A DNA stretch of 64,000 bases, from the NCBI GenBank assembly GCA_027491075.1, contig JAIXWX010000008.1, positions 1-64,000 on the forward strand, given 5' to 3'. The first letter of the stretch is position 1. Each line of letters starts with the position of its first letter. The DNA comes from Flavobacteriales bacterium. Lineage in GTDB: Bacteria; Bacteroidota; Bacteroidia; Flavobacteriales_D; Sanyastnellaceae. Positions 25,977 through 43,362 of this stretch are shown one piece after another. The translations under genes and the position numbers were made by a program. The notes beneath the pieces were generated by a model. It worked only from the letters and a program-made list of their open reading frames with translations. It did not search any database and had not been told where the DNA came from.

Positions 25977-27236
25977 TTAGTGCTTTTTGAACTCTAGCAC
26001 TGCTTTGCGGATGATGCTAACACATTCAAGCAGTTGATTCTGCGTTATTACCAGTGGTGGAGCAAAGCGAATTATATTTCCGTGAGTGGGTTTTGCGAGC
26101 AATCCTAGTTTGGCTAGATTCATGCACAAATCCCAAGCAGTGTGGCTGTCTTCGCTGTCGTTGATTACAATTGCATTTAACAGCCCCCTTCCTCTTACAA
26201 GGGTAATAAGGTCTGTTTCGTCTTGTAGATTTTTCATTTCTTTTCGAAAAATCTCACCAAGTTCGAAGGCATTTTGAGAAAGATTTTCATCAACAAGAAC
26301 CTGAAGTGCTTCCGTAGCAACCGCGCAGGCCAATGGGTTTCCGCCGTATGTAGATCCGTGCTCTCCCGGTTTAATTGTGAGCATGATGTGATCATTAGCA
26401 AGCACTGCGGCTACGGGAAGTGTACCTCCACTGAGGGCTTTCCCCAAAACTAAAATATCGGGCTTCACATTTTCATGATCGCAAGCAAGCATTTTTCCAG
26501 TTCTGGCCAATCCCGTTTGCACTTCATCTGCAATCATCAGCACATTGTACTTAGAACACAGATCGCGCACTCCTTTCAAATAACCATCATCCGGTACCAC
26601 TACACCTGCTTCTCCTTGGATGGGCTCAAACATAAATCCTGCAATATTTGGCTCGTCTTTGAATGCCTGCTCTAGAGCGTGTAAATCATTGTAGGGAACT
26701 ATTATATATCCAGGTACAAAAGGTCCAAAACCGTTGGTGCTACTTGGGTCTTGAGATGAGCTAATCGCAGCCAATGTTCTCCCCCAAAAGTTACCACTTA
26801 CGAAAACCATTTTCGCTTCGTTGGCTGGAACTTTTTTCACATCATAAGCCCATCGTCGAGCGAGTTTCATAGCGGTTTCGCCGCCCTCAACTCCTGTATT
26901 CATGGGAAGTACTTTATCGTAACCGAAGAAATTAGTTATAAACTTCTCGTATACCCCGAGTTGGCTATTGTAAAACGCGCGAGATGTAAGGGTAATCTTC
27001 TGCGCTTGCTGAACAAGTGCCCCTACAATTCGAGGATGTGAATGACCTTGATTAACGGCAGAATAAGCACTCAGAAAATCATAATAACGCTTGCCCTCTA
27101 AATCCCATACAAATACTCCCTCTCCACGGTCTATAACCACGGGTAGTGGGTGATAGTTATGCGCACCATAACGGTCTTCAAGTTCTATAGCTTTTTGTGA
27201 GGTTAAAGAGGCTTGGTACACCTGAGATTCAGACAT
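25977..27236 (-). CDS. rocD: Ornithine--oxo-acid aminotransferase
   Basis: This class-III PLP aminotransferase converts ornithine and a 2-oxo acid to glutamate semialdehyde and an amino acid. The 419-residue protein has [13 protein letters not shown] at the N-terminus, the [17 protein letters not shown] segment, the cofactor aspartate in [14 protein letters not shown], the PLP lysine in VLGKALSGG, and [13 protein letters not shown]. The length and motifs match RocD closely. It has its own promoter (box at 27252-27259) with a leader of only a few bases. Confidence 0.96.
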
Positions 27237-27251
27237 AATTATTTTTTTTTA

Positions 27252-27259
27252 CAAAGTTA
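27252..27259 (-). promoter_or_regulatory. Promoter -7 box (TAACTTTG) for rocD
   Basis: On the minus strand TAACTTTG matches TAnnTTTG exactly and ends 15 bases before the ATG at 27236, predicting a leader of roughly ten bases. Confidence 0.5.
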
Positions 27260-27335
27260 ATTGAAACAATTCATTGGAAAAGAAATAGGTTTGTTCTTGT
27301 TGTACTTTAATCCTATTTCGAATACTAAAAGACAG

Positions 27336-27343
27336 TACATTTG
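27336..27343 (+). promoter_or_regulatory. Promoter -7 box (TACATTTG) for the structured RNA candidate
   Basis: TACATTTG is an exact TAnnTTTG match located 33 bases before the left arm of the long hairpin at 27377. The -33 region has TTTCG at 27316-27320 at a slightly short spacing. Transcription would start near 27350. Confidence 0.5.
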
Positions 27344-27376
27344 CTGTATATTTCAAACAAGAGTTGTTTCTTCAAC

Positions 27377-27480
27377 AAAAGACAGAATCAGTGTGGGGGG
27401 CTATTTCGTGGCTCTGATTTATCAAGACCTGCCGTTTTGGGAGAGAGGACGGTAGGAACCCCACACTGAATCTGTCTTTT
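27377..27480 (+). ncRNA. Long-hairpin structured RNA candidate (6S-Flavo-like)
   Basis: The 306-bp gap between rocD and ndk holds no plausible gene but has a striking fold. A 22-base left arm (27377-27398) pairs with 27459-27480 with a single A-A mismatch (27387/27470). Inside is a second 8-bp stem, CCTGCCGT (27428-27435) with ACGGTAGG (27449-27456), closed by a 13-base loop. Between the two stems the left side has 29 unpaired bases and the right side two, so the bubble is strongly asymmetric. The right arm runs into TTTTTATTT, which could end the transcript. A promoter box lies upstream. Size, asymmetric bubble and host group fit 6S-Flavo RNA, an RNA polymerase-binding 6S relative of Bacteroidota; the class name is inference. 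Confidence 0.6.
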
Positions 27481-27542
27481 TATTTCCTCCATCCTGGATT
27501 TATACCTATTTTCGCAGACTATACGTAAAAGTACATCATACA

Positions 27543-27962
27543 ATGTCAGGAAAAATAACCTTTACAATGATCAAACCTGATGCAACAGCAGCAGGACATA
27601 CCGGAAAAATCATTGACAAAATTATTGGTGCCGGATTTAAAATCAAGGCAATGAAATGGACAAAACTCAGCAAAGAAGAAGCTGGCGAGTTTTATGCAAT
27701 CCACCGCGAACGTCCATTTTTTGGAGAATTAGTAGACTATATGACAAGCGGTCCAATCGTTGCTGCGATTCTCGAGAAAGACAATGCTGTGGAAGATTTC
27801 AGAAAGCTCATCGGAGCTACTGATCCTCAAAAAGCAGAAGAAGGTACCATTCGTAAAATGTTTGCTACCAGCATCGCTGCCAATGCTGTCCATGGTTCTG
27901 ATTCAGACGAAAACGCTGTTATTGAAGGCGCATTCTATTTCTCCTCTAGAGAGCACGCCTGA
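27543..27962 (+). CDS. ndk: Nucleoside diphosphate kinase
   Basis: Ndk transfers phosphate from ATP to other nucleoside diphosphates through a phosphohistidine. The 139-residue protein matches the family along its length, with TFTMIKPDA near the start and the active-site NAVHGSDS (H117). A TATTTTCG at 27507-27514 (seven of eight to the -7 consensus) probably drives it. A strong hairpin terminator follows the stop. Confidence 0.98.
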
Positions 27963-42676: not shown

Positions 42677-42730
42677 TTAATAAAGAAATCTTCTCATTAA
42701 GAGTATTAAGGTTAATTAAGGTTAAGCAAT

Positions 42731-42765
42731 AAAAAACCCCGGAACGCCGGGGTTTTTTGTTTTAT
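42731..42765. terminator. Bidirectional terminator between clpB and the LPP20-like gene
   Basis: AAAAAACCCCGG and CCGGGGTTTTTT form a perfect stem around AACG, with A and T tracts on both sides. It can end both converging transcripts. Confidence 0.92.
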
Positions 42766-42777
42766 TTAAATCAAAGC

Positions 42778-43362
42778 TTATTTTCCTTCAGAAAGCTTTT
42801 GCATTTCCTTTTCAAAAGTCTCCTTGAATTTTTCATAATTGTAGTCTGCCTTCAACTTTTCGTTTTGAGAAAGACCGCTGCTATAGGCATCTGCGATTTT
42901 TTGACCAGACAGCTCAAGAGCAATATAGTGAACATAAACTCCATCGGTTCTTTTGGTGGTCACCTCACAAATCTCCATTGCTCCTTTCAACTGTTGATCA
43001 ACTACAGTGCGAGCCATTTCCTGAAAAGTTTCAGTTACTTCTTCTTTATTGTTGAACTCTGTAGAGTTGACATAATTGTCTCCAACAATTTTCATCGTAG
43101 AGCTAATGGTTTTAGCCAATTCAGCCTGCGCATTAGAACGTGCTTTTTTCTTAGCCGTTTCTCGGTCTATACTTTCACCAGTCGCAGTTGATCTGAAAAC
43201 ATCTGAAGTGCTTCTGTAATCTTTTCCTGAGCAGTATTCGTTGATAACTACCTCACCAACTGGTGCTGGCGTTTCAACGACTTTGTTTTTCTTTTTACAG
43301 CCAACTCCGGCAAATGAAATAAGAGCTACTGAAAGAATAAGGGTAAATTTTCGAGTATTCAT
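42778..43362 (-). CDS. LPP20-like lipoprotein
   Basis: This 194-residue protein has a lipobox AGVGC (cysteine 22) and a basic stretch after it. It has the LPP20/FlgP-like alternating pattern: an early CSGKDYRSTSDVFRSTATGES, then RETAKKKARSNAQAELAKTIS, then TTKRTDGVYVHYIALELS. The core A-x-x-x-A helix plus a strand ending in an aromatic residue and A/L-L is the LPP20 fold (also FlgP and the N-terminal part of FlgT). It is the last gene of a four-gene envelope cluster and has its own promoter box inside the end of the previous gene. Function unknown. The first motif covers residues about 43-62. Confidence 0.78.
   Translation of the reverse strand: MNTRKFTLILSVALISFAGVGCKKKNKVVETPAPVGEVVINEYCSGKDYRSTSDVFRSTATGESIDRETAKKKARSNAQAELAKTISSTMKIVGDNYVNSTEFNNKEEVTETFQEMARTVVDQQLKGAMEICEVTTKRTDGVYVHYIALELSGQKIADAYSSGLSQNEKLKADYNYEKFKETFEKEMQKLSEGK

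Follow-up and report, generated by a model that had tools for sequence, protein, structure and literature searches.

A conserved small RNA gene candidate in the rocD–ndk gap, restricted to one genus of Flavobacteriales

Judged from its sequence and from its counterparts in two genomes of the same genus, an element located between rocD and ndk of a Flavobacteriales bacterium (family Sanyastnellaceae; GenBank assembly GCA_027491075.1, 3.02 Mb) is a small RNA gene that is conserved, has not yet been given a name, and matches no known 6S family. The element is conserved and structured, favors one strand, is present as a single copy at a fixed position, and is followed by a separate ndk box. With respect to its role, we favor with moderate confidence a free-standing, genus-restricted, and separately transcribed small RNA that would act in trans through two invariant hairpins. 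In the following, the term window designates the whole stretch of DNA analyzed, i.e., 64,000 nucleotides of contig JAIXWX010000008.1 (positions 1 to 64,000, forward strand).

Location and fold of the element

The element lies in a gap of 306 nt between two divergent genes, which we take to be rocD (minus strand) and ndk (plus strand) on the basis of their sequences and of the names given in the initial annotation. The gap holds two complementary arms, a TAnnTTTG box, and a T-run (Table 1); a second box, TAGGTTTG, is present at position 27286. The arms have a length of 22 nt each, are 95% complementary, and are separated by 60 nt. They form the 22-bp closing stem with one mismatch (A27387/A27470) which the initial annotation had described, and the TAnnTTTG box upstream of this stem as well as the U-rich end following it, i.e., the T-run at the end of the 3′ arm, are likewise present. 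The first four T residues of this run are the outermost and least conserved pairs of the 3′ arm. A terminator scan with a loop limit of 8 nt listed nothing at the end of the RNA.

Table 1 Coordinates in the window of the element, its parts, and its neighbors
Feature	Position	Strand	Remarks
rocD	25977..27236	−	Divergent neighbor outside the RNA
Candidate −7 box TACATTTG (TAnnTTTG) of the RNA gene	27336..27343	+	Predicted RNA start near 27349
5′ arm of the closing stem	27377..27398	+	GACAGA (27381–27386) identical in 3/3 species
Left hairpin of the three-way junction	27399..27413	+	Loop TTTCG here, TATTTCG in the relatives (UUUCG and UAUUUCG in the RNA)
Junction strand	27414..27427	+	Length varies
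Right hairpin, 11 bp	27428..27456	+	Loop GGGAGAG (27439–27445)
3′ arm of the closing stem	27459..27480	+	
T-rich run TTTTTATTT, terminator-like	27477..27485	+	Weak in G002, clear in the other two species (window and G001)
Candidate ndk promoter box TATTTTCG	27507..27514	+	36 nt before the ndk ATG; outside the RNA
ndk	27543..27962	+	Neighbor outside the RNA

The minimum free energy calculated for positions 27340–27500 is −60.3, compared to a mean of −40.1 for shuffled sequences (z −5.0), and none of 200 shuffles was as good. Between the closing stem and the inner stem, 29 nt (27399–27427) on one side face 2 nt (27457–27458) on the other, which is the count of the initial annotation; the long strand, however, is not the open bubble proposed there, its first 15 nt being folded as a hairpin. 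As about half of this strand is thus a hairpin, the RNA is a three-way junction composed of the closing stem, a left hairpin, and a right hairpin. The inner stem reported earlier exists and comprises 11 bp when G-U pairs are counted (27428–27438/27446–27456) rather than 8 bp. The four inner pairs of the left hairpin have pairing probabilities of 0.97–1.0 in the window and of 0.96–1.0 across all three species, and its outermost pair reaches 0.72 in the window and 0.96 and 0 in the other two species; the innermost pair of the closing stem has a probability of 0.18 in G001. Two segments are invariant across the three species, namely TTTCGTGGCTC (27404–27414) in the region of the left hairpin and TGCCGTTTTGGGAGAGAGG (27430–27448) in the right hairpin.

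Conservation within the genus and distribution beyond it

The element is present in all three genomes of the genus that were examined, one of which (G002) is 69% complete, and the gene order rocD-RNA-ndk-icd is the same in both other genomes (G001 and G002). In pairwise comparisons, the core shows identities of 64/83, 62/83, and 75/81 (75–93%), whereas at the four-fold sites of the neighboring ndk 16/52, 23/54, and 25/52 positions agree (31–48%). For the 140 nt upstream of the element, identity is 0.55 in each of the three pairs (0.51 with an sd of 0.02 for shuffled letters of one pair), and the values for the downstream stretch are 0.57, 0.43, and 0.46. Neutral positions have thus largely turned over while the core was kept, which argues that the core is under selection.

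In the RNAalifold consensus, 107 of 112 pair cells are standard, a count that is based on three sequences and on an alignment built manually with knowledge of the fold, so that it leans towards the structure. Both-sided changes occur at the window pairs 27394–27463, 27390–27467, and 27389–27468, with G002 being gapped at the last two; a fourth such pair, at alignment columns 12/98, does not hold in G001. Of the five broken cells, three belong to the outermost pairs, one to columns 12/98, and one to the left hairpin. In the right hairpin, one-sided changes are found at three pairs, pairing being maintained via G-U. When the alignment is read on the minus strand, 19 cells are mispaired, and the consensus energy amounts to −32.5 compared to −44.3 for the plus strand. 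Against 500 column shuffles, z values of −8.1 (plus) and −7.2 (minus) were obtained, i.e., both strands fold well, and for this reason the choice of strand is based on the G-U pairs, the T-run, and the energy difference; with these, the element is probably an RNA of the plus strand. The junction strand has a length of 13, 16, and 15 nt in the three species, and since these lengths differ out of frame, no protein is read through the element. The conservation of the core, together with stem pairs that are kept by compensatory or G-U changes, argues for a conserved RNA gene. The comparison of orthologous rocD–ndk gaps proposed in the initial annotation therefore supports, with three sequences, a conserved structure, and conservation and structure together speak for what that annotation had named as its second choice, a new structured RNA.

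Outside the genus, the element was not detected. A covariance model of the core matched 3 of 114 genomes of the family and 3 of 399 genomes of the order, in both cases the same three; these scans used stricter filters and scored at most 42 (family) or 12 (order) candidates per genome, so that weak relatives could be missed. A search in the family with a 25-mer and up to three mismatches likewise returned 3 of 114 genomes, all of the genus (control: none), and a looser gapped pattern returned the genus and G078, with the reversed control matching two genomes. A gapped exact pattern searched in 84,980 species yielded four stretches, i.e., the two genus-mates and two chance matches. The latter two, at the loci L071 and L072, lack model support; the match in L072 lies in a coding frame, and the surroundings of L071 read nearly the same. 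Similarly, the phage contig L069 contains an exact 18-mer, but this is located inside a coding frame and has no model match.

The long inverted repeat and the confinement to one genus, with sister genomes having the gap without the element, would also fit a mobile-element remnant, or a mere terminator or palindrome with no further function. We regard this as very improbable, as the genome contains one full copy, which speaks against the multi-copy mobile element that the initial annotation had considered as a refutation, and as conservation of the core exceeds that of neutral sites and the loops are invariant. In addition, no match to the element was found in plasmids, and in phages five records gave only matches of 24–25 nt with E of 1 or more. 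A self-search of the genome with E up to 10 gave 11 matches, comprising the element, its arms matching each other, and eight stretches of 14–23 nt, and in 444 kb of the genome (the window and 19 further stretches) there is no second inverted repeat with arms of 20 bp or more, one mismatch or none, and a spacing of up to 120 nt.

Promoter boxes and the relation to ndk

The motif TAnnTTTG is described as the −7 consensus of Bacteroides fragilis, confirmed in Flavobacterium johnsoniae, according to PMC7366714. Boxes were counted in 144 upstream regions taken from 19 stretches of the genome (L080–L098) and a 74-base piece, with the window left out. TAnnTTTG is present 47 times upstream of genes, compared to 25 times on the opposite strand and a mean of 11.9 in 20 resampled sets; the corresponding numbers for TAnnTTCG are 31, 12, and 6.7. 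TAnnTTCG is thus enriched about as much as the textbook motif TAnnTTTG (31 vs 6.7 and 47 vs 11.9). These counts suggest that the −7 box in this lineage is TAnnTTYG, as in the candidate box of ndk. For the RNA, the box at 27336–27343 is a candidate for a promoter of its own; in the 250 nt preceding the RNA, neither relative has an exact TAnnTTYG box.

With its 3′ end 57 nt upstream of ndk, an orientation shared with that gene, and conservation across the three species, the RNA might be regarded as a cis element, i.e., a leader or attenuator of ndk. Several observations make this reading highly unlikely. The candidate ndk box lies between the RNA and ndk in all three species, the distance to the ATG being 36 nt in the window and 36 and 43 nt in the two genus-mates, and the 3′ end of the RNA is shaped like a terminator. 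Moreover, in seven sister loci without the RNA a TAnnTTYG box is located 33–38 nt before ndk, and the distance from the marker to ndk is 188–212 nt in these loci compared to 376–557 nt in the genus. Ten sister loci were viewed. In seven of them (L033, L035, L036, L038, L039, L040, and L041), rocD adjoins ndk and the gap can be read; L043 was set aside because of unread bases, and L037 and L042 because rocD is not located there. As ndk has its own candidate box after the RNA, and this box is kept in relatives without the RNA, the element is probably not an ndk leader.

Known RNA families, the 6S question, and the proposed role

At the curated cut-offs, none of 4227 Rfam families matched the element. 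When E values of up to 10 were admitted, mir-128 (12 bits, E 8.3) and psRNA6 (8.5 bits, E 5.2) were obtained far below their cut-offs and were discarded as chance matches, and at the loci of the homologues (E up to 5) the matches obtained, three in number, all lay away from the element. Keyword searches of the open-access literature on 6S-Flavo, on 6S RNA of Bacteroidetes, and on structured small RNAs of Flavobacteriales yielded no title or abstract opening that describes the RNA. Elsewhere in the window, positions 42700–42784 match the gammaproteobacterial rimP leader of Rfam (48.4 bits, cut-off 47). This segment forms a terminator-like hairpin, bordered on one side by a clpB-like gene and on the other by an unknown gene in convergent orientation, and because no rimP adjoins it, the match is probably a false positive.

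The initial annotation had likened the element to 6S-Flavo RNA and had proposed a search with the corresponding covariance model. This search was negative: RF01685, like the general 6S model, matched neither in the window (at the gathering score) nor in positions 27200–27600 (E up to 10), and the two loci of the homologues gave no match to 6S-Flavo or 6S with E up to 5. Bacteroidales-1 (RF01693, "suggested 6S-Bacteroidales"), searched at the element and its homologues, matched none of them. In the whole genome, RF01685 had no match at E 0.001 (106 of 106 candidates scored) or at E 1 (73 of 106 scored); the controls for these searches matched 0 of 14 genomes at E 0.001 and only the archaeon Methanocaldococcus at E 1, and as they were nearly silent, the searches show little about an absence of 6S-Flavo. 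For 6S RNA (RF00013), no match was present in the genome with E up to 1, the control search having matched 6 of 14 genomes. RF01685 matched 5 of 149 genomes of the class, none above the Rfam cut-off, and 1 of 39 relatives (E 0.26). It was undetected in all 25 genomes of the family that were searched, and its non-detection is therefore not special to this genus.

Four of the five 6S-Flavo matches in the class (L061–L064, 49–83 bits, below the cut-off) sit between two genes which we take to be zapA and rny from their sequences, a position that could help to find diverged 6S RNAs. In the genome studied here, the distance from the zapA stop codon to the rny ATG is 82 nt (L121:15012–15093; contig 195012–195093), and this gap has no RNA match. 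As 82 nt are too short for a 6S RNA of that size, the place occupied by 6S in those four genomes is empty here, and a location elsewhere, loss, or replacement of 6S are open alternatives. For beta- and gammaproteobacteria, PMC7641849 likewise describes ssrS as located behind zapA.

The element might be a relocated, strongly diverged, or newly evolved 6S-like RNA that binds the main RNA polymerase as a mimic of an open promoter. Such an origin would agree with its long closing stem, asymmetric internal loop, and terminal hairpin, with the 82-nt zapA–rny gap, and with the lack of a 6S-Flavo or 6S match elsewhere in the genome; furthermore, the loop strand TATATTTCGTGGCTC of the relatives resembles the ndk box TATTTTCGCGGCTC of one sister genome (L035). 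We nevertheless consider it unlikely. 6S RNAs in general are described in PMC1242208 as having a closing stem, a large internal loop (central bubble), and a terminal loop; the element has the closing stem and the terminal loop, but about half of the long strand of its internal loop (29 nt) is folded and the opposite strand has 2 nt; a large loop open on both strands, as in 6S RNA (RF00013), does not appear to be present. The letters of the bubble also miss the local −7 consensus: TAnnTTTCG and TATTTCG are each found three times at gene starts, compared to 2.75 and 2.3 expected, and are not enriched, in contrast to TAnnTTTG and TAnnTTCG. Finally, the element and both homologues lack a model match, and the element is confined to one genus.

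With 6S-Flavo, the element shares the intergenic location, a length of about 100–130 nt, a rod with an internal loop and a terminal hairpin, and the occurrence in Bacteroidota. It differs by the lack of a covariance match and of the ACUCAAC...GGAGUUU ends, by other internal loops (compared by eye with the consensus), by its three-way junction and one-sided loop, and by its position between rocD and ndk instead of zapA and rny, the latter location being an observation made here and not a published criterion. An identity with 6S-Flavo, as suggested in the initial annotation, is thus not upheld. A related proposal, according to which a lineage without 6S at zapA–rny evolved, in this genus, an unrelated polymerase-binding RNA in the rocD–ndk gap as a stand-in for 6S, appears decidedly improbable to us.

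For the free-standing trans-acting RNA that we prefer, the following sequence of events can be envisaged. A gene which arose or arrived in the rocD–ndk gap of one genus would be transcribed on the plus strand from its own promoter with the box at 27336, yielding an RNA of 105–137 nt that extends from about 27349 or 27377 to 27485 and may be terminated at the closing stem and the T-run. The closing stem opens into the three-way junction with its two hairpins, in which the exposed letters UUUCG and the following GUGGCUC as well as GGGAGAG are unchanged in the three species. The invariant hairpins would be the working parts and may act in trans, most likely as a protein-binding site, with long antisense pairing less favored. 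The ranking of protein binding as first and of short-seed pairing as second choice was reached by elimination.

Trans-acting antisense small RNAs typically carry exposed, invariant loops on strong stems, and it is possible, if rather doubtful, that the loops GGGAGAG and UUUCG of the element serve as short seeds on mRNA starts. Outside the element, an exact 11-nt complement of the right loop is absent from the three genomes, a weak test with about one such match per genome expected by chance. At 316 gene starts, short complements of the loops show no clear excess in a comparison of low power: CTCTCCC occurs at 2 starts (0.97 expected, 0 antisense), TCTCTCC at 4 (1.37 expected, 4 antisense), and CGAAATA at 5 (2.75 expected, 2 antisense). 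For the small RNA Rfp18 of Flavobacterium psychrophilum, PMC9723704 describes a strong predicted fold and a predicted pairing with targets via a stem-loop. By this description, the element resembles Rfp18 and other structured small RNAs of narrow flavobacterial groups in being free-standing, in its strong predicted fold, and in its occurrence in a narrow group.

As a well-supported RNA gene under strong selection that was observed in one genus only, the element represents a clear case of a narrowly distributed yet tightly constrained bacterial small RNA, and the short zapA–rny gap raises a testable question, namely whether the function of 6S RNA is carried out at all in this branch of the Bacteroidota and, if so, by what.
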